Shown here piece after piece: positions 1 through 64,000 of a DNA stretch of 64,000 nt. Source of the DNA: Trebouxia sp. TZW2008 (taxonomy: Eukaryota > Chlorophyta > Trebouxiophyceae > Trebouxiales > Trebouxiaceae); NCBI GenBank assembly GCA_002118135.1, contig BDIU01000008.1:310001-374000 (forward strand), given 5' to 3'. Each line of letters begins with the position of its first letter. The first letter of the stretch is position 1. The translations under genes and the position numbers were made by a program. Under the pieces are notes generated by a model, which was not told the DNA's origin, did no database searches, and saw only the letters and a list, made by a program, of their open reading frames with translations.

Positions 1-867
1 TGACAGCATTGGCGACTGATGCTTTGCAGTGTAGCAAATCTGCCCATTGCAAATGCCATACCTCCGTCATGAATCACTCTGTAGTTTGCTGTTGCATGCT
101 GCTACAAACATCTTGTATCACCATTGGCTTTGGGCAGGCTCTGACTGCTGTATGCCATCTAGTAGTACACAGCAATGATGACATGCACGGCTATCGTTTT
201 GCAGTCTAATTGCAGTCTAATGTGATGAGCCTTACCTGTGCAGTGGAAGGAACTGTTGACGATGATGAAGCTGGTGGCAATGATGCAGCCTGCTGGCCAT
301 TGCTTTGTGCTTGCTGAGCTTCAGTGGAGCCACTTTCGCTGAGTTGGAATGCAAGGCTTGGCGCTGTCCTTACAGTGCCGTACAAGGTATGCAAGTCTGC
401 AAATTGGCACACACGATGAGATTTGCAATGCTTGGAACAGGGAAGCGCTTTGGACTTACTGCTGCAATGTCAAGCAGGCTGCTATCAGGTGCAGATGTTT
501 CGATGGGCACCTGAGTGTTGTGAGATAGACGTCTGTTGCAGGCCTGCTATGCCTGCTGAGGCATCAGGAAGGGAATAAGCTGAGGCTGCTGGCAGCAACA
601 GGAACTGAGCGCCTGCAAGGGCATGCACCACCGTCAGTAAGTGATCAAGTGACCGTTGTACAGTGTATAGTAATGCATGAGCGCACCTAATGTCGCTGCA
701 ACTGCTGCACGAGCAGACATGCCGCTGTGTTGGTTGCTGCAAGCCGACGGTCTAGGAGGCTCTACTTGGCTGACAGCGCGGCCAGGTGGATTGCGTGAAG
801 TGTGCAGGCGTCTGCTGACCGGATTGCAAGTGCAGCTTTTGTTGACGCCAGTGCTCGAGCACAGCAT
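1..867 (-). CDS. Unknown Ala/Gln/Ser-rich protein, 5' part only (runs off the left edge)
   Basis: This is a minus-strand model of three exons, 867-687, 612-511 and 396-236. Donors GTGCGC, GTGCCC and GTAAGG and TTGCAG-type acceptors join them in consistent phase (1, 1, then 0), giving about 148 codons before the gene leaves the window. The ATG at 867 opens a basic, Ser/Arg-rich N-terminus, then an Ala-rich hydrophobic stretch containing the motif AAVAATLGAQFLLLPAASAY, followed by a Gln/Ala/Ser-rich low-complexity region. The N-terminus would suit an organelle-targeting or membrane-anchoring signal, but I do not recognise the family. It lies divergent to the GNAT gene. The main support is phase continuity across three junctions and exonic composition; there is no homology evidence. 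It could be a non-coding transcript. Confidence 0.4.
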
Positions 868-1186
868 GGGATTAGCTGCTGTGCAATCAACGGTGCGTTC
901 TTGCGAACTTTGCCGTGGCCAATAGAGCTGCCTCTAAGTGACTATAAGCGCGCGATGACAAGAATGCCGGTCTGGACACAAGGCGAGAGCAAACCGCAAA
1001 TACGCTGCACTCGACATGCGCATCGATTGTGCACGATCAGGTGTCGCAGAATTCCTCCGAGAAAGGTCAAGTCTGAAGTCGAGTTGACTTTCACGTCAAG
1101 CAAAAGCCCGTGACGCGTTGTGGTCGCAACAGCGCACCTTGTTGCATTGTAGCGCCTGGTGTCGCACGGCGCAAGTGTCGTGTCGT
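868..1186. promoter_or_regulatory. Divergent intergenic region between the left-edge gene and the GNAT gene
   Basis: About 320 bp separate the two inferred ATGs, which point away from each other, so any promoters and both 5' UTRs must lie here. The sequence is CpG-richer than the introns on either side (several CGCG/GCGC words near 950-1140). I see no convincing TATA box. Confidence 0.35.
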
Positions 1187-3229: not shown

Positions 3230-3627
3230 ACATGAAATGGCGATGAGGGAATGGTCTATGACGTGTTCCACTTGATTGGTTTTGACGGATGACTAAACCG
3301 TATTTGAGCACTCCTGCCTATAACTACGACTAAATACCCAACGAAACCAACACTTAAATGTCCAAAATGATTGCAAATGTCCGAGCAGACAGCTGCAGGC
3401 TTATGACGTCCACATCCGCAAAATCTGCAGCTTGCGTCAACATCAGTCACACAGCTGCAGGCACAGCATCCCAGCAAGCATTCTGCAGCTTGCAATCTGT
3501 GCAGAGGTTACTAAGCTGACTTGAGTCCAACAACAACAACAAAAAGGGGCCTGTAACAGGCATCACAACTGGCTCGATTGTTTCTGATGCGTTCTTGTGA
3601 CAGCACTGACGCTGACATAGACGAGGC
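3230..3627. other. Convergent 3' spacer, no gene seen
   Basis: About 400 bp between the stop codons of the GNAT and NIPA genes, so it must hold both 3' UTRs. I see no conserved ORF, no clear TGTAA poly(A) word close to either stop, and no RNA gene. Confidence 0.5.
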
Positions 3628-6600
3628 CTACAACCGATTTTCTCGGTACTCAGCATATTTGCCTCTCAGCTTAGAGCCCCACGACTTTGTTGCCTGACTA
3701 AACCTCTGGACTGTTGGGTTCTGAAGCACATTACTCCATGCTGACTCACCCTCCAGCTCGCCAGCATGCTGAGTGAGAGGATCCCCAGATGAGTCATACG
3801 TGCTGTGCCTGCTGACGTTTGAACGCAGCAGACTTGCGTCTTCCCGATCGTTCCCGCTGGTGCCGAGCTCCAGGTCTTCAGCATCAAAAATATCCTCAAA
3901 CTCATTCATTGCTTCACCGCCTGCTGTTGTTCTTCTTGACTGCAACCCTCCCTGACCCCCACTGAGACTTGTGGGGTGCATGGTGCTAAAAGCTGACTTC
4001 ATGCTACTAGCAGAGTTGGCTGATCTTGGTGTATGTAATGGTGTGTCATCCATTGAGTCAAGCTCTGGAATCACTGGCGGAAGCTGTGAGCGTGCGTCTG
4101 TGCCTGGAGGGTTGGGGAGTAGCAGACCTAGCTTGGGGTTGACCAGGGGGCCCTGAAATGTTGCTACTGGCCCAAGACCACCTATGCTGTTTGCCTCATC
4201 AACTTTGTCCAACCTGCATTACGTCATTTCCTCATCTCACTAACATGGATGTGCTTGCTAGTGAGGTTCCAAAACCATGCTAGGTGCATACTGGAACAGT
4301 GAGCTGCTACATGAAAGACTGAAACAGTGAGCTGCTACATAAAAGACTGAACGATAACAAAAAAAGCACAGTACTGTCAACCTGTGGTTGGTCACAGGAA
4401 GTCCGATGAGCCTAGCAGGCTTCAGGTCTCGGACCCGCACTATGAACATAACTGATTGATTGAATGTGCACTGAGGGCAAAGGCACTGAGGAGTGTTCAC
4501 AAAGCCAGGGCATGAGCTGTTGAGGTGATGATGCCCACAGCAAGAAGGGGCATGAGCAGCGCAGAGTCTTCAGCACGAACCATCCAGGCTGAGCAGTATG
4601 ATGTTGCTCAACATGGCCAGGAAGTGTGGCTGCAAATCCCATGCTGCTGGCAGAACTGATAGGCGGGTCAACTTGGATTGCATTGCACCTTGCTGGGCAT
4701 GCAAAGATGCAACAGACAGCACTCTGTGGCAGCCATGATTAACATGGTAGAGTTCATCAGCCAAGCCATAAGTTGTGACAGTTGTGATGCAGCAATCAAG
4801 TTGCAGCAAAATCTCATCGCTGTTGCTTCTCAAGTGCTGTAAACAGTACTGCAGCAGCATTGAAGCTGAATCGATGCGTGATGCCTCTGTGTTGTCCGGT
4901 CAAAGGCAGCACCGATGCAAAACAAGTGCCACTAGTTCATTCTGTGCACATAGCCAAGCAGGTGGTGCCAGCTTCAGTTGACAGAGTGCATGCTATTGCA
5001 GTGATGCCATGGTACAAATCCATCAAGTGATAGAGTTGGAAAGGAGATCATACCTGCCAGAGTCTCCAGTGCGCATGCGCTGTTCAAGTGCAGCCATGTT
5101 GTGCTGCCAGTCAGACTGGGAGGTGGGGGCGGGTGCCGCCGACCCCCCATTGTGCAGGGGGAACATACCCCCCTGGCCCAAAGTGACAGGGGGGTGAAGG
5201 GGGTCATCCAGCACAATCACATGGGAGATCATGGCATGCTGCTCACTGATGAAGGCTGCACAGCCCATGAACAGTGCACCGCCTATAGCTAGTAGCATAC
5301 CCAGCAAAAGCCACACCAGGTTGTCTGACTCCATAGCCTGCAGTTCATTACCCCAACATGAGCCATTGTGCAGAGCGGGTGTCCCCCCACTCCCCCCAGA
5401 CTTGGAGGGGGGTGTGAAGGGGGCCATGCAACACTGTGAGATGGGAGTTGATGGCGTGGTGTTCTTTGAAGAAGGCTGCACAGCCCATGAAGAGAGCACC
5501 GCATGCTTTCAAGTAGTGGCATATTACATGTTTCACATTGGATATCCTACAAGTGTGATTTGCGGGAAGTTACCTTGAACTCATCAAAGTAGATGCCGCC
5601 CTCAACAATGGACTGGAAAGTCCAGCAGGCTTGCATGAGCGGGATGATCAAGGAAGACGAGAACAGGTGCAGCCCCTGATTGGTGGCCTTGATCCAGAAA
5701 GCAGCGCTGCCCACAAAAGCCAACACGCAGAACCAGCTGTACCAGTCCACAAACTGTGAAGGCCAGGCTGCTGTGATGATGTAGGTGATGGATTTTGAGA
5801 AGAGCACACTCCAGGCACCTGCATGAAGCAATGCAACGGTCTATAGACTAGACTAGACTATGAACTATGTGGCCGAACTCAAGACCAACGCACAGAAACA
5901 GCTGTACCAGTCCACAAAATGTGTGGGCCAGGCTGCTGTAAAGATGTAGGTGATGGACTTTGGGAACAACACAACCCAGGCACCTGCACGAAACCATGGG
6001 TTTGGCTGACTACAAGCCACCCCAGCAGATACGACTGGGCGTAGGAATGATGGAAGAGGTCTGTGACGCATACATCAGAGTGTGCGTACTGCTGCAGTAG
6101 TAGGACCTCAGTGAGCATTGATGCTGCTGGGGAGGATGTGCTATTTGCATTGTGCAAGACCTTTGCTTTTGCCTGACACAAACAACTTTATAGCATAGCT
6201 TCATAACGCGCATGGCAGACCAAGGCACAATTATCTTTGCTGCACCAAAGTGTAACAGTTAATTGCATGACACAGCTGGCCCTGCCTCAATTACAGGGCC
6301 TGAAATTGCACGCTGAAGAACATACAGAGCTCAACTGCAATGACGACTGCACTGATGCTGAAGCTATGGCTTGACTTTGGCGACTGCATGCACATTGGCG
6401 CGATCATGCTAGCTTCAACAGCAGAGAGGAGCAGTGCAGGACGGAAGATCAAACAAGCAAAATGTCATGCACAGAGGCGAGTGGATGACTTCCAGCAGCA
6501 CCACTCAGGCACTCACCACTCAGACAATGGCTGATGCTAGACTGGAACCAGTGACACCTTTGGTCTGTGCTTTTGAAGTGGTTCAGCTTGTGAACAGACG

Positions 6601-8927
6601 TGCTTGCTCAAAGACAGTCGCTTGGTGACTAAACGTACCTAGCAAGGCCGTTGAGCCCAACTAGCATGCGTTGTTATGTATGTGTCTGTACTCACCACTC
6701 ACCAATGAGGCCAGCGCATGCAGACAAGAGCAGTGCATGACAGCATGAGCAAACAATCGTATGCAGAGGCAAGTATGGTCCCGAAAGCACTTCTGCACTC
6801 ACCAATCAGGCCTGCATACGCAGAGAAGAGCAATGCATGGCAGAAGATCAGGTACTGCGGCTCCTTCTTGGATTTTGCCCTCCACCTGACGCGCACGCTG
6901 GCTGTTTGCGCCTCAGCTCGCAGCCTAGCTACGTACTGCTTGCCCCATGCTAGAGCACCCAGCAGGGCGCCCAGCACAATAATGAAAACAATCATGCTAG
7001 TTGTGGTCCATTGCAGCCTCAACTGTGCCAAAGTGAACTTGACTTCTGCTGGGCCATACACCACAATCAGGGCGTTGCCTGCATGCACAATAACACCGTA
7101 AATTTATGTGATGCCTGCAGTGCATGCTGACATTGTGCCAGAGTGAACATAACTTCTGCTGGGCTGTAGACCACAGTTAGGGCATTGCTTGCAGGATGCA
7201 GGATGCAGGGTGGACTTGTGCGCGTGATGCAGTGTACGACAAGGCAAGCAGCTGACGCTACAATGATGACCTGTACATGATTAGGGCAAAATGATGAATG
7301 GCTGCTTTTGATGGCAGAAGCTTGAATTTGACTATTACGCTTTGTGACTTTGTGCCAAATGACTGCACAGATGTGATCAAATCATGTAAGAGCCTGCGCT
7401 GAGCAGACTTCAGCCATCTGTTCAAACCTGCAATATGCAAAGCTAGCATTGCATTCTGCCTCGAAGGCTGTGTCTGCATTGCACTGTATGAATGAAAGTG
7501 TGTGACTCTCGGTGTGGTGCCTGGAATGAATGATGCTGACAAAGGCTTCCCATATGTGTTTGCGCTGCACTGTATGAACAACAAAACTTGTGACTTGAGG
7601 TGGTGCCTGTACCTCCCAATATGATCATGATGCTGACAAAAGCTTCCCAGGTGTACTTGTCGCCCAGCAGGAAGTTGGACACAATAGGAATCATGACAAA
7701 CTGCAAGGATCCCAGGCCGGACAGCACCATCTGAGCAGCAAATCTCATGGCTGCAAAGCGCAAGAGGTTGCCGAAGCCGAAGATGGACCACCCAACAGTC
7801 ATGCACATTCTGGACCCTAGACGCTGCTGTCGCCATTTGCCGTCTGTGCTTCGCCTGCCAGAAATTATTTGATTTTGATACAGTATTACCTCCTTAAAGT
7901 AACTTTTGACATAAGAACAGTCTCATTGCAAGGACAATACGATTGGGAAACAAACACAGCGTTCTGATTGCAAGTAATACTTTGGAGAATGGGCAGTTCA
8001 ACACAGTGACATCTGTCTGGTTGAGCAAAGCAGTGGTGATAAGGAGAAAATGCTGCAACAGCATGCATTTTGGCAGGGCTGTAACTGCACCCTTAGCAAG
8101 TATTAGCTCTGCTGTAAATGTCAGCTGCTCAAATTGGGGCACTCTCCAGAGCAAGCTCAGTAAGCTTTGCCAGGTGCATGTGCATATTTTGCATGCAGCA
8201 AGGCAATGCTAGTGCAATGCAACATTAAGGGAAACACTATTAGGCTGGGAAAAGGATGCTGCTTCAATGCAGTGCTGAACATCCTCAAAGTGCATTCATT
8301 GACGATAGGCTAATGTGAAACATAGATGTGGTGCTGACAGCAGACCGAGATTCGACAACTTCAGAAACAGCTTGGAAAAGGACACATGCCTTGCGTTACA
8401 TGAATGCAATCCTCGGGTGTGACAATGTAAACAGCAGGCGTTAACCCTCAGCTGGAACGACGTGAACAAGATGCTTCACAGTATCTGGTGCCACGCACCA
8501 TTGGTAAGGGTCGCTAGTGCCCACTCTGGGAGGTAGCTTCCAGCATCTGCCAGCTTCAGAGGTTTCCTCCATCAGCTGCGCCACCTGCAAAGCAGTTCAA
8601 GGCGCTTCTGAACTGCCTTGTTGAAAGAGCTTGTCAGGAAGAAGGCGGCAAAACATCAGTTTGCTTGCAAGACGTAAGCTTGAGTCAGTTTTGATAAACA
8701 GCTTGTTTCTTGCAGCAAGAATGCTGTACCTTGACAAGTGTTTGTCCCAGCACGATGAAAAGACTGCCTGCTATGTGCAAGCCAGCTCCCAAAGCTGCTG
8801 TGCCTTGCAAAGCACTGAGCATCCCCATGGCGTACTCCTCAGCAGCTTCGTAACTGAGTGGAGGTACAGGGATGTATTCAGCTGCAGGCGTCAACTCTGG
8901 AGCTGACAGCACTGCAGCATCTTGCAT
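3628..8927 (-). CDS. NIPA: NIPA-type magnesium transporter homologue with a long C-terminal tail
   Basis: Seven minus-strand exons: 8927-8730, 8584-8499, 7854-7613, 7078-6803, 5818-5574, 5337-5054 and 4213-3628. Phases match at all six junctions and the product is about 638 aa. The ATG at 8927 gives an acidic N-terminus, then the first membrane segment HIAGSLFIVLGQTLVK. Exon 3 carries the NIPA signature region (GWSIFGFGNLLRFAAMRFAA, then LGSLQFVMIPIVSNFLLGDK); exon 4 has NALIVVYGPAEVKFT and a further membrane segment; exon 5 has SVLFSKSITYIITAAW and TNQGLHLFSSSLIIPLMQA; exon 6 has the last segment, VWLLLGMLLAIGGALFMG. Known NIPA (DUF803) proteins have about nine membrane segments and move Mg2+. 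The last exon adds about 195 codons of soluble, Ser/Pro/acidic sequence with no fold I recognise, making this longer than usual family members (about 330-400 aa). Several introns carry decayed copies of neighbouring exons. Confidence 0.85.
5338..5520 (-). repeat. Decayed copy of NIPA exon 6 in the preceding intron
   Basis: This stretch repeats the middle of exon 6 (roughly 5125-5290), offset by about 220 bp. The words GAAGGCTGCACAGCCCATGA and the C-rich run after CCATTGTGCAG occur in both. On the minus strand it would read GALFMGCAAFFKEHHAINSH beside the exon's GALFMGCAAFISEQHAMISH. Frame is lost afterwards. Confidence 0.85.
5865..5998 (-). repeat. Decayed copy of the 5' half of NIPA exon 5
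   Basis: It matches the acceptor and first ~40 codons of exon 5, about 165 bp upstream of it in transcription. The minus strand reads GAWVVLFPKSITYIFTAAWP against the exon's GAWSVLFSKSITYIITAAWP, with an AG acceptor at the equivalent place (near 5984). The match stops after DWYSCFCALV, so an exon made from it would be truncated. Confidence 0.88.
6690..6760 (-). repeat. Decayed copy of the 3' end of NIPA exon 4 with its donor
   Basis: The segment repeats the last ~40 bp of exon 4 (6803-6845) and its GTGAGT donor, lying downstream in transcription. Shared features are CTCACCAAT followed by AGGCC and a run of GCAGA-AAGAGCA-TGCATG. Confidence 0.7.
7128..7205 (-). repeat. Decayed copy of the 5' end of NIPA exon 4 with its acceptor
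   Basis: It aligns with 7024-7083 (acceptor and first ~55 bp of exon 4), sharing ACTTCTGCTGGGC and the AGGGC-TTGC-TGCA acceptor region. The minus strand contains an in-frame stop where the exon has a Tyr codon, so it is not a usable alternative exon. Confidence 0.75.
7440..7640 (-). repeat. Tandem copies of the NIPA exon 3 donor region
   Basis: The block GCACTGTATGAA..TGTGAC..GGTGCCTG..ATGATGCTGACAAA.GCTTCCCA occurs twice, about 90 bp apart. The copy at 7570-7650 includes the real exon 3 end and its GTACAG donor; the other is intronic and decayed. Confidence 0.7.
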
Positions 8928-9155
8928 ACGCTTGCAAGCGCAGCAGGAGCCTCAGGACCAGCCCACGAATGCGACTATTCGCGCTGAGAGAAACAGGCGA
9001 GGATGCTGTCGTGTCGTCTCCCCCTCTTCGGACAGCAACGACCGTTTGAGCAAGGCTCTAAGCGGAGGATTCAAGCAGAGCAAGGCTGCGACTTGGGCCC
9101 TTCAGCGGCAGCGTCTGAGAGTGCCTGTTGCAGTATCAAGCGATGAAGAGTAGCG
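8928..9155. promoter_or_regulatory. Divergent spacer upstream of the NIPA gene
   Basis: This is a 228-bp gap between the NIPA ATG and a possible plus-strand gene at 9156. It is CpG-rich compared with nearby introns. No specific motif was identified. Confidence 0.3.
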
Positions 9156-32789: not shown

Positions 32790-33883
32790 TCAGCACTTGG
32801 TGGCCTTCAGGGCGTACTTTGGAAACAAGAATGTTGGTTGTGAAGCACCCTCCTTATAGTAGGCATATGCCAGTGTGCCATCAGGGTCCATTGACTCACC
32901 AGAGAAACTGCACAAAACGTTAACAGCCTCAATACATACCAATTTGCATTCCTGAGGGTGAGTGGTCTCGCAAACAACAGAACTTGGACAGGTGATCTCA
33001 TCAGATGCTGCGCATGGCCGGTTGTTGCGGAATGCAAACCACTTGTAACATGCATGTCAGAGTGACGGAGATTGCAGATGACAGGAGTGGCACAGGATGT
33101 GCCATATCTTGCCCATGACACGTCATATCTGGAAAGAAGGCAGAGAGTGCACTCACAATTGCAGGTCCTTGATCTTGGCAATCAAGTACTTGATGGCTGG
33201 CTGTGCCTTGCCCTTAAACTCTGCTTGTTGGTCTTCAGGTAGCTTCTCAATTACCTTTGACAACCAGGGCTGCAACACAGGACAAGCACTGATGCATGCA
33301 TCTCAAGCATCAAAGCCTAGATGACTTGAGACTTGCTCAGCAGAAAATAGTCATGCATAGCAATTGCTAAAGCTACCTTGATGTATCCCATGAAACTCTT
33401 CTTGTCATGTCCAGATTGCTCCTGCAGAGTGCATATGCCACTTTCTGTTATCATCAGCAGCTGCAGCACTTGCTATTTGCAATAGTAGAGCATTGCTTAC
33501 CACAAGTCTGAAGGAGTCCACAACATCAACAACTTTCCTGCTGCTGGATTCTGTACCCTCGTCTGCCTCCTCTGCTGAGGGGTTTGCACCAATGTCGACA
33601 TCAACATCGCCGACAGTGACCCACTGCAGCAAGACTCTACCGTATAGAGCAAGCTACTTGCCAATCAGCAGAGCATAAACACGCAGCAAATCGGTTTCTT
33701 ACGCTGCCCTCAACTTCAAAGAAGAAGTTGTCCTCAACCTCTTTCATTTCGTACGAGTCTGCAATCATCTCATCGCCTGCAGTGCATCGCGCATCGATCA
33801 TTCACCGATGCCACCTCAAGTAGCTGTGCACACTGTTGATGGCTTGTCTGCTTACCGGTCAGGAGGTCCGTGTAAATCAACAT
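32790..33883 (-). CDS. TCTP: Translationally controlled tumour protein (TCTP) homologue
   Basis: Six minus-strand exons: 33883-33856, 33776-33703, 33623-33501, 33421-33377, 33269-33157 and 32907-32790, giving 166 aa, close to the usual 168-172. The start [19 protein letters not shown] and the motif [17 protein letters not shown] are diagnostic of the family. The C-terminal half has [41 protein letters not shown] and the final [13 protein letters not shown] is an abundant cytosolic protein linked to translation, growth control and calcium binding in eukaryotes. The first exon is only 28 bp, typical of an ancient intron pattern. It is transcribed away from the coiled-coil/EF-hand gene. Confidence 0.97.
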
Positions 33884-50000: not shown

Positions 50001-53000
50001 CTGTACGTCAACCAACTGGTGTCGTCAACTCTATCATGGCGGGAGCAAGGGGTCACTCTTCAGCAGACTGCTGACCTGCATGGCCCCAACAACACAGCCC
50101 TTACAAAGTTAGCCTTCACAGTTAGCTACGGCCCCTCAAACATGCTGGTTGTGAAGCTCAGAATACCCAGTTGGGTTGCTGAAGGAACTGCTGAGGTGAC
50201 TCCCTGACCCTGCATGCAATCCCCTGCCCTTCCCCTTGCATGGCCCCAACAACCTAGCCCCTACAAAGGTTGCCTGCATAGTCAGCTACGGCTGTTCAAA
50301 CATGCTGGTTGTGAAGCTCAGAATAACCAGCTGGATTGTGGAAGGCACTGCTGAGCTAATCCTCCACTGCATGCCCCCCACTTCCTGTCCCACCCCTCTC
50401 CCATCCCCACCTAACACCCCCCACCCCCCTCCCCCTCGAATCCCCCTTGGGTCCCCTCACCTAGCTAGTCAGCTTTTCTGCCAAGTGTCCAGAATGCTAG
50501 CATGTATTCAGCAGACAAACAGCGACTTAAGCACTGCCAAACCACTGAGATAGTGAGCTTGGTCAAGCAGAGTCAAGCACAGCTGCTAAACAGACACATT
50601 GTATGCGATTGGTCACAGCTGTGAGGCATCATGGTTCACGGGATCACTTGTGGTGCAGACAACCCTCAAGACTGAGACAATTGGTGCTTGAAGGTCTCAC
50701 AACTGGAAATGACACAACCTGGAAATGACTCAAACAAAGCCTTCTGCTGCAAGGTACGCTTGAACGGCCAGACTTGGCGGGAGTGTCACCATCACACGCT
50801 TTCAAGCTCACCTCAGTGTTTGGGGACAGCTTTGTCTGCTGGCAGCTACTGCAGCATCAAGGGCGCCTTCAAAACAGGTGAGCAATCTGAGCCGAGATTT
50901 GGACCTGTTCTCTTGCCTCCACGTCTGAGTGTTAGGGCTAGCAATGTCGGTAGGCGGAGCTGAAGCGTTAGTGTTTGGACTTGAGATGTCGCTGTGTGTC
51001 ACAGTGTCTCAGGCAATCCAAAAAGATAGCAGAGAGCTTGCCACAGTAGTCAGCAAGCCAAAATGCTTGTCTTGTCTTGCCTCAAGAATGGCAAGACAAG
51101 CAGCTTGGCTGGCTGATTTTTGGGTGGCAAGCTTTCTGCTACCCTTCAGGATGCATGCACGAATGTCTTGATCAGGTTTGGACACAGGTGCTTTCTAATG
51201 CCTCACCCCTTGACTGAGTTGCTTTGATTTATGAGAACAATCATACCATGCACTGATGCAGCACTGCAGGCTAACCAAGCAGTATTTGCTGAGTGCACCC
51301 GGTGATGTCACAAGCAAGGACTTAATGGAATATGATTATTGACAATCATACGAATTCCGTACAATGACTGTCATCAGTTGGGATTGCGCGGAGCTGTGTA
51401 GAACGGTTGTTGTTGATGTTGGCAATTGTATGAAGCTCTGTACAATAGTTGTCGCTGTTGACGTTTGTATGAAGCTTGGTTCAGTGATCCTCGCTGTCAT
51501 CATTTGCATAGTGGCCTGCACAATGGTTGTTGTTGTTGGCAAGTGTGTGAAGCTTTGCACAATTGCTGTCGTTGTTGGCAACTGTCTGAAGCTGTGTGAA
51601 TTTTGTAGGCGATGTGATCACAGCCAAGCTGCCCATGATAGTCAGGGCAGAAACAATACAAGACAGCCGCCCAGAGTTTCAGAATCTAAAGGTGTGCTCG
51701 TGCATTCAGTCTTGACCTACATCATTGTTGCTAACCACATGTATCACCGATATTGCAAAGACAGCCAAACAAGCCATTGCATTGCGTCTTGACACACATT
51801 TTTTGTTGCTGAGTAGGTGTATCACTGTTCCCGCCAAGGCAGCAAAACAAGCCACTGCATCACAGTGGCTCTGGTTCAACCTGCGTCATTGCTGCAAAGT
51901 GTATTCGTCACTGCTACAAACACATCCAAACAGCTATTGCATTCAAGTAGGTTTCAACTGCTTGAGAGACTGCTCTCTCGTCCATGACACAGGCAAGGTT
52001 GCAAACTAGGGTGTAATTCAGGACATCATCTTTGACCTTGTGTGCTTCCCATGCAATCCTGACGAGCCAAATTGTCTGTTCCATCTGCACAGTCCATCTT
52101 GACAGACTTCCTGTGTCATGCTCACAGTGAATGATCTGCCAAAATGGCACGCATACACTGTTAGGCGCCAGTTTGTTGTTGCAGCTGAGCTGCAGAAGTG
52201 CAGTGTTTACATTCAGGCTGTCATGATTGGACCAATGCTCATGGCTGGTCTCACAGACGGCTCACGTACGATTGATGCCAACGCCTCTGACCTGGCACCC
52301 CATGTGACCGAGCTGACTGATGACGACTTAGTCAGCCTCAAACTGCAAGGCAGCAACAACATTTACCTCCAACAGAAGGGCAAGCTGATTGTTGCAGATC
52401 AGCTGCGGCCAAGCAATGCTGCCGCTATGGCTGCAACATTCCGCATGGTCAACATCTCAACCAGGTCGGGTAGTGTTGCACTGCCTGTAGAGGGCAGGGT
52501 CCATACTTTCACTGCCCTGTTGAATTCTGGCTGAATGCTCCTTTGGTCTGGATGCAGTTTGCATCACTGCAATACATGCTGGTGCTTGAACCCTTTGCAA
52601 GCTTGTTGGTCTGCTTGATAGTATGCATGCATCTCTATTAAGCATGACCAAGCTCTCTGCTTTTTACAGAATGGATACAGATGGCACCTGCATTGGCTTT
52701 CTGTTGTCAAATGGTCGCCTAAGTACTTGCAGGTATGCTTGCAGGTCTGATGCTGGCCCAGGATCTGGAGAACCTAATCAGCAAGTTGTTCTGGAAAGCA
52801 TGCTGTATCCAGATCAGGTCCTGACCATGAACCCACAGGTGACTGCCTCTAGTGTTGCTTCTTGTGTACAGGCAGTGTCAAAGCAACTTTGTCAGCTGTC
52901 ATTGCATGTTGCATGCATTTCATCACAGGTGTATGGCATCTCGTGCAAAAGCACGATTCGTGCATGTTGTTTGCTGTCAGCAGCCTTTCTGTTGTGCCTG

Positions 53001-54273: not shown

Positions 54274-57200
54274 ATGAGGGCTTTCGGGCTGCGAGCGGGT
54301 GGTACATGCCCTGGGCATGCCTACATGCATGGATCTCGTTTGCGTGTTCCTCGCTGCCTTCCCGTCGGCCGGGAGGCAGGCCGAGCCTTTTCCTCACGCA
54401 CAGTCTTTGCCAAGCAAAAGCCTGAGCAAATACAGGAGCAAAAGCAGAAGCAAAAGCAAAACTCTCCAGATCGCCCTTCAACATCAACATCTGTTCCCTG
54501 GTTGATGCAATCGCCATCAAAACCGTCTTCTGGCTCAGCATCACAAAGGCCAAAAACAGGCAGCCCGTCAGCGCCTGTCACATCCCAGGCTGAGTCAAAA
54601 AGGCCTCCAACAGGTAGCTCAACAGCTCCAAGACCGCCAGCTCAAACCCAGCCACAGCAAGCTCAGGAGAAGGGGACAACATCTTCAAGATCGCCAGCTC
54701 AAACTCAACCACAGCAAGCTCAGGAGAAGGGGACAACAGCTTCAAGATCGCCAGCTCAAACTCAGCCACAGCAATCTCAGGAGAAGGGGACAACAGCTTC
54801 TGCAAGGCAGACGCAGCCCTCTGTTTCAGCTGATGCCTCAACAGCTCAGCAACCTGACAACCACACCACCTCCATGCCTGAAGTGTCAGGACAAATTGCT
54901 GAGCGCAGAGCTCGGTCTCTTGCAAATGATGCAAGCACATCAGCGTCTGTTCCTCACTCTGACAAGAGCACAGCTGTTATCAAGCGAGCAAATGATGCAA
55001 GCACATCAGCTGCATCCAGCCCTCAGGTTGACAAGAGCACAGCTGATGCCAGGAGAGCAAACGATGCAAGTACCTCAGCTGCGTCCAGTCCTCAGGTCGA
55101 CAGAAGCATGACTGATGTCAGGCGAGCAAGGCCGCAGACAGCAGGTGACGCCAAAAACGATGTGACTGCTTCGGCAAATTTGCAGCACAATGCACAGCAG
55201 CCGTCACAGTCACAGCACGCACAGCAGCCATCACAGTCACAGCATGCACAGCAGCCGTCAGCGTCACAGCATGCACAGCAGCCGCCACAGCCACAGCATG
55301 CACAGCAGCCGTCACAGTCACAGCATGCACAGCGGAGGGAATCTGCCAACATCAGCAATGGGGCGCCAGCTGCAACAAGCAGTGCAAGCCCTGTACAAAG
55401 TGCAAACGCAGCGCCACCGTCCAGCCAGTATGCTCAGAGGCAACCCAGGTTTGATGTTGCAGCTTCAAGACATCCAGGCAAGCTTGCCATCAGAGACCTC
55501 CTGGCTACAGAACGCATCATGATGCCTGAGTATTCACCAGGGCAGAAGCGCACAATGTGCCCTGTGTGTGAGGGAGGCAGTCAGCATGAAGCTAGCTTGT
55601 CAGTTCAAATTAAACCTGACAGCCAGTCAGCTGCTTGGAAGTGCTTCAGGGCCAAATGCGGCTGGGAAGGCGGCATTGGCCAGACTGCAGGTGACTTTAG
55701 CATTCCAGCATCAAGCACAACATAAAATGTGACATATGCTCCACCTGCACTGCATGTACTGGGTCTGTAATCAATGCTTGGTCTGCTGTACAAAGGGTCC
55801 AGTATGTACGTTCCGCGTACTATCATTTGGCGTGCATCTTGTGTACTCTGGGAAACGCTGGCTCACATGTTCACACTGTTGATCTCAGTTTCTCCTGTTT
55901 GTTGTAAAATGTATCAGCTTCTGTCGCATGCCCTGTCAAGTCAGTCATCATGGACACAATTGAGCAACAATCTGCCTGCATGCTACCTTGGTTCTGTGAC
56001 CAGCCTTTCTGTGACTGTACATGAGCCACCCATCAGCCTGGAGTGCAATGCTGTGGCTCTGCTCCCCCTCTCACAGCAGTTTGTTTGTCAATGCATCTGT
56101 TTGTGCTGTGGTCTGGTCAGTTCAATCATGCCCAAGGTCTGACTTTAACTGTACAGCAAGGTGGTCCTCTCATGGTTGTGGTCCTTTTTGCAGTCCTTCC
56201 CAAGCCCAAAAAAACTGTAGCTCCAAAAGTTGAGAAGCCTCAGACCAGCAACTTCCGGCCCCTCAGCCCTGACTTCATCAAACATTTTGCTGAGCGAGGC
56301 ATCAGCAAACAGACCCTGAAGCGCAACAAAGTGGCTCAGGAGCAGACCTGGATGCCTGGTGGGTCTAAAGGCCCAGCAATTGCTTTTCCCTATCAGCGAG
56401 ATGGAGAGGTGGTGAATGTCAAGTACCGCACTCTGGACAAGAGCTTCAGGCAGGTCAAGGGCGCAGAGAAGATTCTGTATGGGCTGGACGATGTTGTTGG
56501 TCAAGATACCATCATCATTGTTGAAGGTGTGTTGGTTTGTCTCCTTCTAGTTGATGTAGGCAAGATGCTGCATGGGCTTGGTCATGTTGTGGGTCAAATT
56601 GCTTTCATTAGCGTTGAAGGTAGGGACTTGTTTGTGTTCTTCCATTAGCTGTAGACAAATGGATGATGCTGTTGGACAAGGTACCATCATCATTGAAGGT
56701 ACTTGTCATGATCACCATGGCAGACAGCCCAAATCTACTGAAATGGTGCAGCAGCTTGTCTACCATCCAAGCATCTTTGCTGATACGTTGCCAACAACGG
56801 CAGGTCGCGCAAGTGAAAGGGCGTGCTCTTCTGCAGGAAATACAGCATGCACCAAGTTATTGATGCCCAGCTTGAACCGGTGCTGACACTCATTGCAGCA
56901 TTGCTTTCGTACAAATGACCACTTATCATTTGATGTGCAGGTGAGATGGACAAGCTAGCCTTGGAGGAGGCGGGCTTTCTGAATGTGGTCAGTGTGCCAG
57001 ACGGCGCTCCCGCCAAGGTGAAGGACTCGGCTGTGCCCGCCCCCGACGCCGACACCAAGTACTCTTACCTGTGGAACTGCCGAGCCGTGCTTGACCAGGC
57101 GACCCGCATCCTGATGGCCACCGACAACGATCCTCCCGGTCACGCCTTGGCGGAGGAGCTGGCCCGCCGCCTTGGTAGGTTTCGCCACACTCTGCTGGAC

Positions 57201-59403
57201 TGTGCTCTGCTGGACACTGGATGGCTGCCTTGTCATGTATGCCACATGTCAAATCTGAAAGGTCCTGTGCAATGCAGACAAGTTCAATGCCTTGCCAGCT
57301 TCGCTGCAAATTGCTAAGCTGTACTGTTGGAAGTTGCGGCCACCTTGATTGTCATAGCTTTCCTCTGTATTTGCAGATTAACTCCATTTGCATGCCAGCT
57401 CAATCTTCTTGCAAGGGCCCTCCTGCATGGCAGCTACCTTACTGCTTAGTGCGCACGCGCATCTTGTTATCAGCAATGTCTGGGATTGTCGCAGGTAGGG
57501 AAAGGTGTTATAGGGTGCAATGGGACGCTCCAGCACAGCCAGAGTCTGACTTGCCAACTGAGGCAGCTGAGCCAGCAGAGCAACGATCAGCAGAAGCCTC
57601 CTTCAGAAAGGATGCCAATGAAGTGTTGATGAAAGACGGCGCTGATGCCCTCAGGCTGTGCATAGACTTGGCAGAGCCCCTGCCCATCAGGGGCCTTTTC
57701 AGGTACTGCCTTGCCCTGTACTCCTGCAAACATGCAAATCTATCCAAAATCAACAGGGGCTCTGGAGGTTTGTGAGCGCAAGCAATGTTTCTGATGCTGC
57801 CCTGCTCTTGGTATTGCCCTGCCCTTGGTTCTGCTCTGCCCTTGGTTCTGCTCTGCCCTTGGTTCTGCCCTGCGCTTGGCAGTTTCCTGCCAAACAGAGG
57901 AGTCTTCTGGTAGTGCCCTGCCCTTTGTCTTGGCAAATTGCCTGGCTTGCTGGTCAGGCCTGATGCAGCCTTTGTGAGCCTGAAATGAAATGCGTCTGAT
58001 TGTTGGCGTATTGTTGTTCTGTCTGTTGACTCAATGCCTGAGGTCAAGGCGTCGCTCTCATGCAGGCTTGCAGATACTGAGCAGGAAGTTTGGCGTCTGT
58101 ACAGACTTCAGCAGGGGGATCAAATGAGCAACTCAATTGGCTGGTCATCTCTGCATACTGTCAACATTGTGAGTGTGCGCTCAATGCTTAGCTCCGGTCA
58201 AACAAATTTATGTTGAACGTCTTTGAGTCATGCAGGTTTGCCGACTCTGAGCACGAAGTTTGGAGTCTGTACAAGCTTCAGCTTGGAGATCAGATGGGCA
58301 AGTCAACTGGCTGGCCAGCTCTGCATACTGTGAGCGTGCTGTGTGAGCGCTCAGTGGTCAGCTCCATTGTAGCGAATTAGATTGAAACTTGAGGTGTCAT
58401 GCAGGTTTGCAGACTTCGAGCAGGAAGTTTGGAGTCTGTACAAGCTCCAGTTGGGGGATCAGATGGGCAAGTCAACGGGCTGGCCATCTCTGGATGAAGT
58501 CTATCGGGTATGCAGTGTTTTGCTATTTGTCAAGGCATGCTGTACTGTGGCCCTACCCCTCCAATCACAGTCATACTGTTCTGCTGTGCCCAACTATGTC
58601 ATGCTGTGGCTCTGTATTCAGACCACAGGCACATCAGCACTTCAGAAATCAGGGTGTCAATGCGTCTGTCAAAGGTTGTGCTGTGTTCCGCACCACTTCA
58701 ATGCGTTCACCAGGTAGAACCCGTGCCCTCGACGGGCAGTCTACGCAAGCTTGCTGCACATAACTTCATAGTCCCTTGTTTGTTACAGTGCATCATTGCA
58801 ACAAATCTCTTTGTTCTGTGCAATCAGTGAAGACATGCATTTTGACAAGGGTGCTGTAGCTGACAAAGTCAATTTAATGTTGCTTCACAATGTCAGCCAT
58901 GAACTGAGCATTGCTGCCGGTGCTTGTCACATCAGCTTTATTTGTCTTTGTTCATTGTAGTCAGTGTTGGTGAGTGGACAGATTACGACTGAGCAACGCG
59001 TCAGCGTTGCATGACCTGTGTGAGTAGCTTTGTTTCCCCTTGGAGGCAGGCCTTTGCATTTAATCTGCAAACACGCATGATTAGTAGTAGCTCAAACATG
59101 ATTTGATCAGTAGCTTGTGGGTTTGCAGGTGGTCCCTGGCGAGCTGACAATCATAACAGGCGTGCCCAACTCTGGCAAGTCTGAGTGGATAGACGCCCTC
59201 ATGGTCAACCTGGCTGAGAGGTTTGGCTGGAGGTTTGGTCTGTGCTCAATGGAGAAGAAGGTGTGACACCCTACTGCCCCTCCCCCGCCTGGTCTCTGTC
59301 CTGACTCCATCTGTCTGCCCTGTTAGGCTTGCTGTTACACCAAACTCAAAACAGCACGGCAACCTGAACAAGCTAGCAGTGGTGTCTGTCGTGCCTGCTG
59401 CAT

Positions 59404-59435
<32 letters not shown>

Positions 59436-62088
59436 GCAGAGTGTAGATGAATGGTCATGACACACATCCAGCACTCAGGATAGCAACTGACGTTCTGATT
59501 GTCTGTGAAAGTGCTCTGTGACAGTATTGGCTATAGCGTTGCTTTCTGTCGTGCAGGTGACAGACCATGCGAAGCAGCTGTTGGAGAAGCACATGAGAAA
59601 GCCATTGTTTGACGGCGGCTATGCTGGCAGCATCTCACGCATGACTTCAGCAGCATGTCCCTTTTGCGGCTGACCACCATCACCATAAAAACAGTTGCTG
59701 TTTTGTCACACAGGTGACAGACCATGCAAAGCAGCTGATGGAGAAGCACGTTAGAAAGTCCTTCTTTGATGGTGGCTATGCAGGCAACGTGCCCAGGATG
59801 ACCCCAGAAGATGTGTTGCAGAGCATGGCTGCTGTTTTCAACATCACAGCAATAACTACTTGTCTATTGTGTAGGTGGCAGACCATGCCAAGCAGCTGAT
59901 AGAGAAGCACCTGCAGAAACCCTTCTTTGACGGCGGCTATGCAGGCAGCGTTCCCCGCATGACTCTTGAAGATGTGCAGCAGGGCATTGACTGGGTGGAT
60001 GACAGCCCTCCCTATCCACTATGAACATTACGTTTCTGCTGCTGATCACCACAATCATGGCAATAAGCGCTTGTCTGGTTGCACAGGTGACAGACCACGC
60101 TAAGCAGCTGATGGAGAAGCACCTGAGGAAGCCTTTCTTTGATGGCGGCTATGCTGGCAGCGTCCCAAGGATGACTCCAGAAGATGTGCAGCAAGGCATC
60201 GACTGGGTTGACGACTGTTTCTTCCCCATTCGCTATGAGGATGAAGCCCTGCCTTCTGTTGACTGGGTCCTCAATCTTGCCAAAGCTGCTGTACTCAGGT
60301 ACCACAGAGACCACCATACTCAGCTTGCCTTGCTGCGCACTCATACTCAATTGCTGTGGCACTTCCATGAAGCTCCAATATACATTTCAATTTTGGGAAA
60401 ATTGTGTGGTTGAGAGTTCCACAAGTGCAGGCACCATCAACAGGTTGTTGAACAGGCTTGCTCTGTGTTACGTATGTGGCCCAAAGCTTCATGTTCGCTG
60501 CTGTCTTATGTCATACACTGTAAGCGGTCATCAGAGTCTGTCTGCCGTCATAAAACCTGCAGGGACGAGGTCGTGATCCTTGTCATACAGCACAGCTTGT
60601 GCAATAGCTTCTTCACTGTCACACAACATTGGTTCTCACTAGGTACAGCATCCGTCGGTTGCTCGTGGATCCTTGCAATGAGCTAGACCATCACAGGCCC
60701 TCCCACATGTCAGGGACAGAGTATGTCAGCCAGCACATGTAACTACATTCTCCCTTGACACTGTTACTTCTGTATTCCTGATCAAAGCTTGTGTGCTCAC
60801 CAGGTATGGCATCCGTGGATTGTTGGTGGACCCTTACAACGAGCTAGACCACCAGAGGCCTTCTCACATGTCAGAGACAGAGTACGTCAGCCAGATGTTG
60901 ACCAAGATTAAGCGCTTTGCACAGCATCATGATGTGCACGTTTGGTTTGTGGCGCATCCTAGACAGCTCAGGGACTGGAAAGGCCAGCCTCCAACAATGT
61001 ATGACATCTCTGGCAGTGCCCATTTCATCAACAAGGCAGACAATGGACTTGTCATACACAGAAATAGGGATCCTGAAGCTGGAGCTATGAATGAGGTGAG
61101 CTGTGGATCCATTGCAGTCACTCTTTGTTTTGTCTTGCTCATTGCCCACGAGAACTGTCCACTTTTGGAATATGCACTGTTATTGTCAGTTGAGCTGGTG
61201 GAGTATGGCGTCTCTTAGGCAATGTCACATAGCTCAGCATTGTTTGTGTGAAACACAGCTGAAACAAGTTTTGAACTCAGGAATGGGTTCCATTGTAATT
61301 CTTGAGCGGCTTGTTTTAGAAACGATGCAAAGTTGGGATGGTCTTCACAGCAGCTGAAAAGCTGGCAGGTGTACCTTTCAAGTCAACTGACAGATGGTAT
61401 GACACTGTGCTGATGCTGCAGGTTCAGATCTTTGTGAGGAAAGTGCGTAACAAGGCTGCAGGCACAATAGGTGAGCCAGCTGCATCGAATCACTTCTGCT
61501 CCCTGCTGATTTACTGCTTTGCTCCTGTTACTGCTTTGCTGATGTTGCTGTTTTGCTGTGTTGCGGTCTTGCCTGTGCTGCTGCTTTGCTTGGTTGCTGT
61601 TGAGCTCATGTCCCTGTCTTGTCACTTCTTTTGTGGTGCTGTCTGTCTACTTTTCCCATATTGCTGTTTGGCTGCTTGCTCTCATACAGTGCCAAGGCGT
61701 CAAGATGCATGAATGCTTGAGGTGTTTCCTGTGTTCAGGTGACTGCAAGCTGGAGTACGACCGCGTAACAGGCTGTTACCTGGACCACGCTTACATGGGT
61801 TTGAACGGCGGCTCTTCTCAGGTTTACGGCATCCCGTCAATCCCTGATCCGGCTCTCAGCTTGTCTTCATCATCTCAGACTTCCTATGATGGTATTTTCC
61901 AGAAATTTGGACAGAGTCAAACACCACAGAAAGCACCGAAGACAAATGACAATGCCAAGTCAACCGTTGGGGCTGTTGCACAGGATGAAAATCTGGTGCC
62001 AGTGTCACACCGCACAGTAATGAATGATTTCAATGACCCAATTTCTGCAGAGGCGGCATATGTTTACAATTCCCCAGATTCAAATTAG
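54274..62088 (+). CDS. TWINKLE: TWINKLE-type organelle DNA helicase-primase
   Basis: Ten exons: 54274-55690, 56194-56526, 56941-57174, 57495-57702, 58405-58507, 59129-59260, 60087-60298, 60804-61095, 61422-61470 and 61739-62088. Phases agree and the product is about 1109 aa. A basic transit-like N-terminus is followed by ~370 residues of low-complexity linker with three repeat families (19-aa PAQTQPQQAQEKGTT, 23-aa ANDASTSAASSPQVD, 9-aa QHAQQPSQS). The primase zinc ribbon has Cys429, Cys432, Cys457 and Cys462. The RNA-polymerase/TOPRIM domain shows VEGEMDKLALEEAG and LMATDNDPPGH. The SF4 helicase domain has Walker A GVPNSGKS (776-783), Walker B LLVDPYNELDHQR (Asp889) and the VWFVAHPRQL motif. 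This matches plant TWINKLE, which primes and unwinds plastid and mitochondrial DNA. The complete zinc ribbon and acidic TOPRIM residues suggest active primase, unlike animal TWINKLE. Confidence 0.95.
54630..54805 (+). repeat. In-frame 57-bp tandem repeat in the TWINKLE linker
   Basis: Three nearly identical units encode PAQTQPQQAQEKGTTASRS with 1-3 changes each. Near-identity at synonymous sites points to recent duplication. Two further in-frame repeat families follow at 54915-55130 (23 codons, three units) and 55190-55335 (9 codons, five units). Confidence 0.92.
56535..56705 (+). repeat. Two decayed copies of the TWINKLE exon 2 end
   Basis: The exon 2 end (GATGTTGTTGGTCAAGATAC, CATCATCATTGTTGAAG|GT) recurs near 56560-56625 and again near 56655-56702 as GATGCTGTTGGACAAGGTAC, CATCATCATTGAAG|GT. 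Both keep the donor-like GAAGGT. Confidence 0.9.
57785..57895 (+). repeat. Minisatellite of about 20-bp TGCCCTTGGTTCTGCTC units
   Basis: Four to five units in TWINKLE intron 4, just after exon 4. Confidence 0.9.
58064..58404 (+). repeat. Two extra tandem copies of TWINKLE exon 5 (about 170-bp period)
   Basis: Exon-like copies begin at 58066 and 58236; the functional exon begins at 58405 (periods 170 and 169). All start after GCAG and encode the block LYKLQLGDQMGKSTGW or variants (LYRLQQGDQMSNSIGW in the first). The extra copies diverge before the exon end and lack the donor after VYR. Confidence 0.96.
59399..59446. repeat. CAG microsatellite in a TWINKLE intron
   Basis: About nine uninterrupted CAG units followed by degenerate ones, in the intron after exon 6. 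Confidence 0.93.
59554..60086 (+). repeat. Three extra tandem copies of TWINKLE exon 7
   Basis: Copies begin at 59556, 59714 and 59875; the functional exon begins at 60087 (periods 158, 161 and 212). Each is preceded by an AG acceptor and reads V(T/A)DHAKQL.EKH..KP.FDGGYAG...RMT. The first ends in a stop after RMTS. The second diverges after EDVLQSM. The third continues to DWVDD and then stops. Only the fourth reaches the full exon and donor. Confidence 0.97.
60640..60745 (+). repeat. Decayed copy of the 5' part of TWINKLE exon 8
   Basis: It starts at an AG|GTA.AGCATCCGT junction 161 bp before the real exon. It keeps LLVDP.NELDH.RPSHMS and the YVSQ block, then ends. It contains a copy of the Walker B codons. 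Confidence 0.94.
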
Positions 62089-62721
62089 CCCAGCTCTGCT
62101 GCTTCTACAGCAAAAAGAGCCCAGTTCCGCACAAGATGTCAGCAGTGCTGCTTGATGTTAGCTGGTCTGGTCCATGGCACACTCTGTGACCTGCTTGTTG
62201 CCAGCACCCACTGCTGAGTGCTCAAGTGTATACAAATGATGCAATGTGTTTGTCTAAGCTTATGCTTTCATGTCAGTTAAGCTTTAGTACTTTGACAAAC
62301 TCAATGACTGCTTTGCTTTTCATCAAGTTGCGCTAAAGTCATTGGATGCATACCTGTATGCAGCATCTGTACTGAGCCCCACAATGAATGATACTGATAT
62401 GTACTTGCTAGCTCACTTGATGCCCTGTTGCGTGTTTTTACTTGAACGAGTTGTTGCCCCAGCTTATAACGTACTGTTGTTGGCACGTGATGCCATAGTG
62501 AGTTGCGTATAGTCAGCGCTGTTTGGCCTGTGAGATGTTTTCACCACAGACGCTTTCATTTATGATGTCGATCTTAAAGCAGATTGATTTTCAGTAGCAG
62601 TGTTCAGAAGACCTCTGCACCTCAACATATATTTGCAAAGGCCTGGCCAACTGGAGCGAATGCACGCTTTTGCTTTCAAAGCATGTACTTTACTAGCAGC
62701 CTGACACAATGTCTAAGATCA
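62089..62721. other. Convergent 3' spacer, about 630 bp, no gene seen
   Basis: Between the TWINKLE stop and the stop of the right-edge minus-strand gene. Only short chance ORFs. Confidence 0.5.
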
Positions 62722-64000
62722 TCAGCAAAGTTCAACATTTGCACACAACCATTTGTGATCAGAAGCAGAGTAGTCGTGATTCCCTATATCCTTCTCAAGA
62801 ACTTTCATCTTTCTTAACAGCAACCAATCCAGCTTCCCCTTCATGAGACTGTATCCAAAATATTTGTACGCTGGATTGTCAAGTGTGACTGTGGTCACTG
62901 GATCAAAAGGATCTTCAAAACCTGCAATTGCATCACCATAGGTACGGCCCACACTCATGTGGAATGAATCCTCAAAGTAGGACCAATCACAGACGCACAA
63001 GACAAAGGGCAGGCCCCTATAAGTCAAGCATATGCTGCTTGCTGCCTTGAAAGCAGCAGTCCTGGGCTGCCTCTGGAGACACAGGCTCCCTTTATGACGC
63101 CCACTGGCATAGCCTTTTCTTCTTCGTTTGAGTGGTTCTACTTTCCCCTATGCCACATACATTGCTCTGGACAGAGAACTGCACATTGCTCAGGCCAGCA
63201 GGACAAAGGTAGAAAGGCGGAAAAAGCACAGGCTAAAAGCCACAGCATAAGCAGCAGCACATGCCCATTCTAGGTCTCCTGGCAGGTCTTGATGCGTCTT
63301 GCAGCAGCAGCAAATGCCTTTCAAGGTGCATCCAGTTTTTGCCAGGAGACCCAGAAGCATGGTCAGCAGCAAACGCATCTGAACATGCATCAAGTCTCAA
63401 GATGCATGAAGATGTGCTAGGATACCCAGAAGTATGGGCAATAGCAAACGGCCCGCATGAAAATCCACCAAAGGACACCCAAGCTGTGCTCATGTAGAGA
63501 TGCAGCAGCAGCAGCAGCCACTCTAGACACCATGTGAAATGCAAAGTCTAATGGCGTTGAGCTTAGGCGTGAGCTGTGTCACGGATGCTCTCGCGCCCAG
63601 CAACCATTGAGTCTCACAAGATGTGATCATACAGTTTATCCTCTTTATATGGTCACTTGATGTCAGGATACTGTTCATGTCAAGGACAAGGCAGTTGGGA
63701 ACAGCCCTGCATTCTGCCCACAGTGGGCACTCTGAGCAAAGACAAATTGGTATAAGGACAATTTTGTTCACAGCCAACGCAGTTGTCATAAAGGGGAAAG
63801 ACTGTACCAGGGTTAGTGATGTCTTGGCAGACATGAGGTGGCAGCCCTAGCTTTTGCAGCTGGTCATTGACGGACACTCCAAGCAGACCAGGCGGAAAGT
63901 GACCAACTTCAGCATTAGCCTGACTGCTGTGCTGACTTGTCTCCAGCTGCTGCTCTGGCTGTGACTCACCACTGGGCATTCCTGCAGCACAGCAGTGTTT
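62722..64000 (-). CDS. Endonuclease/exonuclease/phosphatase-fold protein, 3' part (runs off the right edge)
   Basis: Two minus-strand exons are clear. The last, 63016-62722, is entered through a TATAG acceptor (phase 2) and encodes LPFVLCVCDWSYFEDSFHMS, GDAIAGFEDPFDP, YKYFGYSLMKGKLDWLLLRK and the terminal NHDYSASDHKWLCANVEL. The DWLLLR and SASDHKWL motifs are the C-terminal EEP motifs, with the catalytic Asp-His pair. An upstream exon starts at 63981 and contains LPPHVCQDITNPGTVFPLYD and the Cys pair NCVGCEQNC; its 3' end (63680-63760) and any exon in between could not be settled. EEP proteins are metal-dependent hydrolases of nucleic acids or phosphoesters; the substrate is unknown. Confidence 0.65.
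63280..63480. repeat. Imperfect direct repeats of about 80 bp near the right edge
   Basis: The block AG.A(G/T)ACCCAGAAG.ATGG.CA..AGCAAACG occurs twice (around 63345 and 63418). Partial copies of CTTGATGCGTCTTGCAGCAG-like sequence lie alongside, within the intron region of the EEP gene. Confidence 0.6.

Follow-up and report, generated by a model that had tools for sequence, protein, structure and literature searches.

Decayed copies of exon ends in introns of Trebouxia sp. TZW2008 and their probable origin by local tandem duplication

Introduction

A stretch of 64,000 nucleotides from the green alga Trebouxia sp. TZW2008 (assembly GCA_002118135.1, contig BDIU01000008.1, positions 310,001 to 374,000; hereafter the window) raises the question of why so many of its introns hold partial, mutated copies of the adjacent exon end together with its splice site. 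These copies are termed exon echoes. A first-pass annotation of the window had described them in at least six genes and had proposed that tandem duplication across intron-exon junctions produces them and lengthens introns. The position and orientation of the copies, their statistics, their neutral decay, and the bookkeeping of intron length are all reported below as observations.

The sample was 144 kb, or 0.2% of the 68.5-Mb assembly (527 contigs), and every count below refers to these 144 kb. It comprised the window (C8:310001-374000) and 80 kb more, namely 10 kb to the left of the window and parts of six further contigs. C1 (20 kb) and C100 (10 kb) were picked blind, whereas C85, C149, C273, and C202 contributed 10 kb each, chosen around DEAD-box exons. 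The curated gene set contained 23 genes with 180 exons, 157 introns, and 314 junctions.

Position and frequency of exon echoes

The outermost 70 bp at each exon end served as a query against the flanking 1 kb in both directions, after every modelled exon had been masked, and a Smith-Waterman score of at least 100 counted as a match. Two of the 314 exon ends (<30 bp) were dropped, leaving 312. A same-side echo, i.e., upstream of an acceptor or downstream of a donor, was found at 41 of the 312 exon ends, about one in eight, while the controls gave two wrong-side and two inverted matches among the same 312. Acceptor ends had same-side echoes in 20 of 156 cases and none on the wrong side (inverted: none on the same side, one on the wrong side); donor ends had 21 of 156 and two, respectively (inverted: none and one). 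Both wrong-side matches came from short exons (103 and 138 bp) in which the acceptor echo extends as far as the opposite end. The annotated arrangement, with copies of an exon's 5' part lying upstream of it and copies of its 3' part downstream, was thus seen in 41 same-side cases against two.

Repeating the search with each match masked gave 69 echo copies at the 41 junctions. The window alone had 28 copies at 19 junctions, in good agreement with the "about twenty" examples first described. All six genes named at that time carried echoes: NIPA at four junctions, a Q-rich gene at four, an unidentified membrane protein at two, a sugar transporter at two, GH127 at three, and TWINKLE at four. Rates were similar along C8 (22/146 junctions) and elsewhere (19/168). 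Echoes outside C8 were found on C1, on C100, and at the DEAD-box loci of C85 and C202; no echoes were found at the DEAD-box loci of C149 and C273 in the junction scan. Eleven of the 23 genes had no echoes, including the eIF4A-, eIF4A3-, MCM-, and TCTP-like genes.

The self-comparison of introns with exons that the first-pass annotation had suggested was run on the 144 kb, and on five contigs similarity was far above the wrong-side and inverted controls. At spacings of 100-200 bp, BLAST (at least 42 bits) returned 45 direct and no inverted pieces, several of which may come from one array. This corresponded to 315 direct pieces per 1e8 base-pair comparisons, against 0.24 for direct pieces spaced more than 10 kb. 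At the same threshold, pieces spaced more than 10 kb numbered five direct and two inverted in the whole sample, and no direct piece was spaced 800-5000 bp in the 144 kb. For 6.75% of the 37,706 coding bp, a direct copy at least 80% identical lay in unannotated sequence within the span of that gene extended by 1 kb, and for 0% an inverted copy.

The spacing of the nearest echo had a median of 156 bp (interquartile range 124-174) over all loci. Regularly spaced arrays were seen as three echoes of one TWINKLE exon and as arrays of 157 and 213 bp on C1. A length of about 156 bp is close to the size of a nucleosome repeat or an Okazaki fragment, and the spacing is possibly a clue to the mechanism.

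The echoes of the window are listed by gene, with strand; d is the echo spacing in bp and percentages are identity to the exon.

NIPA
5914-5983, minus: acceptor echo of exon 5574-5818 (d = 165, 84%, CAG kept)
7119-7188, minus: acceptor echo of exon 6803-7078 (d = 110, 80%)
6703-6750, minus: donor echo of exon 6803-7078 (d = 100, 79%, GTGAGT kept)
6401-6448, minus: second donor echo of exon 6803-7078 (d = 402, 79%, donor lost)
7526-7568, minus: donor echo of exon 7613-7854 (d = 95, 88%, donor lost)
5409-5502, minus: inner-exon copy, exon 5054-5337 (81% to 5189-5282), short of the junction and outside the 28

Q-rich gene
16661-16730, plus: donor echo of exon 16256-16582 (d = 148, 86%, GT kept)
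17016-17076, plus: acceptor echo of exon 17141-17281 (d = 125, 90%, TGCAG kept)
17382-17412, plus: donor echo of exon 17141-17281 (d = 131, 87%, GT kept)
18556-18607, plus: donor echo of exon 18338-18525 (d = 82, 75%, donor lost)

Membrane protein
20658-20703, minus: acceptor echo of exon 20293-20423 (d = 280, 82%, CAG kept)
24238-24302, 24088-24121, 23961-24023, and 23879-23948 (span 23879-24302), minus: four donor echoes of exon 24308-24496 (70-79%)

Sugar transporter
29374-29442, plus: acceptor echo of exon 29737-29865 (d = 363, 87%, CAG kept)
29567-29620, plus: second acceptor echo of exon 29737-29865 (d = 170, 94%; the 30 bp preceding the acceptor also identical)
31645-31710, plus: donor echo of exon 31256-31556 (d = 154, 88%, GTAAG kept)

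GH127
48441-48508, plus: donor echo of exon 47981-48285 (d = 223, 87%, GTGAG kept)
49276-49316, plus: echo of the inner part of the first 70 bp of exon 49492-49642 (d = 244, 80%), with a longer self-match 49295-49348/49538-49591
50286-50355, plus: donor echo of exon 49971-50195 (d = 160, 87%, GT changed to CT; BLAST match 50237-50355)

TWINKLE
56556-56619 (d = 93, 72%) and 56660-56695 (d = 175, 89%), plus: two donor echoes of exon 56194-56526
58066-58135 (d = 339, 80%) and 58236-58305 (d = 169, 89%), plus: two acceptor echoes of exon 58405-58507, CAG kept in both
59557-59626, 59714-59783, and 59875-59944, plus: three acceptor echoes of exon 60087-60298 (86-89%, all keep AG)
60643-60712, plus: acceptor echo of exon 60804-61095 (d = 161, 81%, TAG kept)

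Gene models

Three genes were read by hand, with splice sites set through a frame-keeping search, and a small gene finder trained on them was run on all of the sequence. The gene finder mistook several echoes for exons, i.e., echoes mislead gene finders. During curation, seven splice sites were shifted by a base or two, and predicted exons that repeated an adjacent exon (echoes) were dropped together with many very short predicted exons. Models beyond the three hand-read genes are mostly predictions, and names given without a Pfam match are readings of the sequence. Doubtful exon ends include PKG 6891 and DDX31 16317, both with GC donors.

Pfam backed six genes of the window: the sugar transporter, GH127, NIPA, TCTP, FPL/CLEC16A, and Toprim-DnaB_C (TWINKLE). 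The 179-residue part of the membrane protein that was searched matched no Pfam family. The sugar-transporter model, from which the echoes were excluded, aligned with GlcP (PDB 4lds) across residues 104-527 of 531. The TWINKLE protein was nearest to that of Trebouxia sp. C0005 (86%), followed by C0004 (85%).

Intron length

Echoes were present in 34 of the 157 introns. Among introns shorter than 1500 bp, which excluded one intron from the test, those with echoes (n = 33) had a median length of 621 bp and the others (n = 123) 337 bp (p = 1e-9). After subtraction of the largest echo spacing, the echo-bearing introns measured 343 bp against 337 bp (p = 0.50). Within echo-bearing genes only, the same subtraction gave 343 against 376 bp (p = 0.43). 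The length excess of echo-bearing introns thus equalled the echo spacing, as the lengthening first proposed would have it, and the echoes most likely lengthened introns without altering the protein. The wording that introns are built from echoes was too strong, given the 34 introns with echoes and recognisable local direct repeats covering 14.8% of the 70,833 intron bp.

Several genes with short introns (eIF4A-, DDX18-, RPC6-, eIF4A3-, and TCTP-like; at L008, L009, L010, and window 32790-33883) were without echoes. Selection against longer introns is perhaps the reason in these genes.

To our knowledge, intron growth in genomes with few transposons is not well understood. Here the exon end is a preserved template, so recent intron growth can be directly read and dated.

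Probable origin by tandem duplication

The echoes most likely arose by local tandem duplication, with a unit of about 150 bp, that was tolerated since splicing still took place at the copy attached to the remainder of the exon. In this process, the nuclear genome would undergo frequent local tandem duplication of short segments, usually with a unit of about 100-200 bp. A duplication across an acceptor would yield two blocks in a row, each an intron part followed by an exon start, and then the remaining exon, and a duplication across a donor would yield the mirror image. A normal protein would come only from the copy that runs on into the remaining exon, and selection would retain splicing there; the other copy would become intronic and decay neutrally, and the intron would grow by the length of the unit. 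The same-side rule follows automatically from tandem duplication and is therefore no independent evidence of a special mechanism. The duplication event itself we infer. Slippage, unequal exchange, and repair are all candidates for its cause at the DNA level.

The arrays, being direct, same-side, and evenly spaced, agree with tandem duplication. Where the intron sides of the copies could be aligned (28 copies), their divergence was 19.5%, against 15.3% for the exon parts. A simulation of tandem duplication followed by neutral decay approached the acceptor-side identity profile when larger indels were included at 0.05-0.1 per substitution. The NIPA exon (window 5560-5820), searched against its own genome in a search that gives a lower bound, matched only itself and its echo.

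Repeats of similar size were also found wholly within introns and between genes, and repeats within an exon kept the reading frame. The following are in the window:

54620-55333, plus: in-frame tandem repeats in the Q/S-rich linker of TWINKLE exon 1 (units of 57, 69, and 27 bp, each divisible by 3)
47355-47990, unstranded: tandem array confined to a GH127 intron (unit about 65 bp)
42336-42519, unstranded: intron-only tandem repeat in the FPL/CLEC16A-like gene (unit 77 bp)

In-frame exonic, intron-only, and intergenic repeats are together what is expected if selection filters one process. The echoes are the best visible class of a general local duplication process, which is not specific to exons. 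Duplication across the junction, as first proposed, was accordingly supported in itself and is too narrow as a description, given the intron-only, intergenic, and in-frame exonic repeats.

Tiles outside exons and echo zones had a direct match with a score of at least 120 in 148 of 2419 cases and an inverted match in 35; because of the inverted matches, part of the noncoding tile clusters may be due to chance. The noncoding tile scan at this score gave 32/52 noncoding clusters (hand count). Tile matches did not differ clearly between introns (99/1445) and intergenic DNA (49/974; p = 0.07).

Codon pattern, splice sites, and alternative explanations

In the best echo of each junction (2964 sites), mismatches to the exon had frequencies of 0.119 (first codon position), 0.107 (second), and 0.237 (third). 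A neutral copy with divergence t, compared with an exon that is held constant at the first two positions and varies freely at the third, gives t, t, and 2t, and the observed values agree with neutral drift of the copy next to an exon under constraint. The ratio of nonsynonymous to synonymous differences (N/S) was 0.42 in the best echoes and likewise in all copies, with 0.49 for donor copies and 0.36 for acceptor copies. Small gaps in the best echoes numbered 25, of which 20 were not multiples of three. The splice dinucleotide (AG or GT/GC) was kept in 45 of the 56 copies that reach the junction (acceptors 26/30, donors 19/26), close to a neutral expectation of about 0.79 (0.89 squared, with t = 0.11). 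Many echo sites were still strong, with 25/30 acceptor and 16/26 donor echoes scoring no lower than the 10th percentile of genuine sites. If used, the 45 intact sites would cause a frameshift in 33 cases and a stop in 35, and neither in only three. There was no sign of selection for echo use, and use must be blocked somehow. We infer that intact echo sites are skipped through exon definition, since each echo is missing its partner site across the exon, the donor for an acceptor echo and the acceptor for a donor echo. Dozens of natural, near-identical decoy splice sites beside the real ones offer a ready test of spliceosome choice.

The kept splice dinucleotides, the high scores of the acceptor echoes, and the excess of differences at third codon positions over first and second are also what might be expected if echoes were alternative or mutually exclusive exons, born by tandem exon duplication and maintained by selection. 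The copies, however, are partial and one-sided, each being found through one exon end, and the third-position excess is expected between a constrained exon and a neutral copy (N/S 0.42 against about 0.5). The prevalence of gaps that break the frame, the disruptive outcome at 42 of the 45 intact sites, and the presence of the echoed TWINKLE motifs as single copies in the proteins of four relatives also argue against use as exons, which we consider very unlikely. Purifying selection on the protein sequence of the echoes was disfavoured by the codon pattern, the gaps, and the splice-site retention, and in the sample the copies did not look like alternative exons under protein-level selection, an outcome that the first-pass annotation had named as refuting its proposal. 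Still less credible is the Rogers model, in which introns are created by duplicating exon segments that contain AGGT and the echoes would be the source halves. In its favour, exons began with GT at 54 of the 157 acceptors, more often with an echo (10/20) than without (44/137), with p = 0.13. In introns longer than 90 bp, intron starts resembled downstream exon starts in 0/146 cases and intron ends resembled upstream exon ends in 2/146, at the 99th percentile of the null; moreover, the echoes sit within the intron with a splice site of their own. A link between echoes and GT-starting exons, which might reflect recursive splicing, was dropped as not significant over all genes at that same p value.

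Several results weigh against tandem duplication with neutral decay. The nearest copy had intron-side homology at 21 of the 41 junctions, against simulated fractions of 0.55-0.70 with larger indels and 0.80 without them. At the other 20 it was missing (score <63; both hand counts), even beside exon parts 90-97% identical, e.g., at the L010 acceptor at 837 (97%). Tandem duplication explains these 20 only through frequent larger indels, and the rate used was an assumed value on which the fit depends; this qualifies the simple duplication model first put forward. On the donor side, where loss was faster, 13 of 35 copies had intron similarity (score at least 63, by hand), against 62-70% simulated. 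Junction-spanning families outnumbered noncoding-only families 42:12 in the BLAST list (hand count; 56 families in total including two wholly exonic, with an automatic count of 11 noncoding-only clusters), where uniform placement predicts 0.6-0.7:1. At a score of at least 120, the 36 echo junctions against 32 noncoding tile clusters likewise exceeded the ratio for uniform placement. The acceptor-copy N/S of 0.36 lies below the neutral limit of 0.5. Finally, longer introns give more room to detect echoes, which may inflate the length difference, so the length test is strong support and not proof. A strong junction preference, as the ratio of 42:12 would suggest, is not claimed, since the more sensitive tile scan gave 32 noncoding clusters against 36 junctions.

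These poor fits may stem from the indel rates that were assumed and from the easier detection of copies with a conserved template, or from a real preference for exon ends. Under such a preference, the exon edge and its splice site would be copied directly into the adjacent intron, with homology ending near the splice site. This would account for why roughly half of the junctions lack intron-side homology even though the exon parts are equally young, as judged by the similar codon pattern of 28 copies with and 38 without intron homology (three intermediate copies omitted), for the excess of exon-containing over noncoding-only families, and for the sharp drop of identity past the donor. Plain tandem duplication and neutral decay with moderate indels nevertheless approaches the acceptor-side profile, repeats of much the same size are also seen within introns, between genes, and in frame within an exon, and noncoding pairs lose detectability faster because both of their copies drift. 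We regard direct copying of exon edges as unlikely, and it is doubtful, to much the same degree, that exon ends are preferred substrates of a process linked to splice sites or to the transcribed borders between exons and introns. If it were true, exon-end copying would fill introns with strong, neutrally decaying decoy sites that are ignored through exon definition.

Age of the TWINKLE echoes

At codons where the TWINKLE residue differs from that of a relative, the echoes carried the residue of their own genome at 11 of 13 (C0005) and 15 of 17 (C0004) and that of the relative at none. The motifs of three echoed segments, including the segment of exon 60087-60298, occurred once each in the proteins of four relatives. 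Given the own-genome residues, the TWINKLE echoes seem to be younger than the split from these relatives, or to have been copied again afterwards.

Of the nine TWINKLE exons that follow exon 1 (56194-62088), eight begin with GT, so that their acceptors read AG followed by GT.

Other features of the sequence

GC donors were present in 12 of the 157 modelled introns, e.g., at the locus 27992-28898 (donors after 28219 and 28898), and two of the 12 (L006 6892 and C1 16318) may result from misplaced exon ends. Three places, 21172-21234, 29884-29989, and 45218-45322, carried a dispersed repeat (about 50-107 bp, 77-79% identical). Matches to the own reverse complement were found at 47279-47624 (part of the region of the 65-bp array in the GH127 intron), 51016-51152, and 23776-23853. 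An Rfam scan of the window gave no matches at the gathering score.

Comparison with known systems

The pattern is real, its single steps are ordinary, and as a genome-wide pattern it is apparently new, at least to us. Within the portions of the open-licence PubMed Central (PMC) literature covered, junction-crossing duplication appeared as a single case, and no report of it as a general mode of intron growth was found. Published Trebouxia genomes are described as 63-74 Mb with 49.6-51.1% GC (PMC11523091); the words "intron" and "tandem" have no occurrence in that genome paper, and "intron" occurs once in PMC12712428, in the references.

The single case is the potato RdRp gene, in which a tandem duplication across an intron-exon boundary made a new intron (Ma et al., 2016; PMC4974935). 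As described there, the duplicated segment consisted of the 3' side of an intron and the 5' side of the next exon, as in the acceptor echoes. Unlike in potato, the upstream copy is skipped here and the intron already present becomes longer, in dozens of cases. Intron gain through duplication of AGGT segments is called established in a review (PMC3443670). The echoes resemble intron gain by internal gene duplication (Hellsten, 2011; Gao and Lynch, 2009; as cited in PMC3443670 and PMC4974935) in that a local direct duplication yields noncoding sequence. They differ from AGGT-copy intron creation, as set out in these two sources, in that the AGGT signature is absent and introns are only lengthened.

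Tandem exon duplication and mutually exclusive exons also place exon copies in adjacent introns (PMC9013439, PMC6071210). In the account of PMC9013439, these are whole and often used exons, unlike the partial, one-sided, decaying copies found here. The same source gives homologs at least 80% identical for about 2% of human exonic nucleotides, 0.08% of those of the fly, and 0.06% of those of the worm; the ratio of our 6.75% to these figures is indicative only, as BLAST pieces are compared with exonerate results. Introners and other transposon-driven intron gain likewise alter intron content genome-wide (PMC9860276). As portrayed there, introners copy themselves into many genes, whereas each echo is local to its own exon and remote repeats were rare in the sample.

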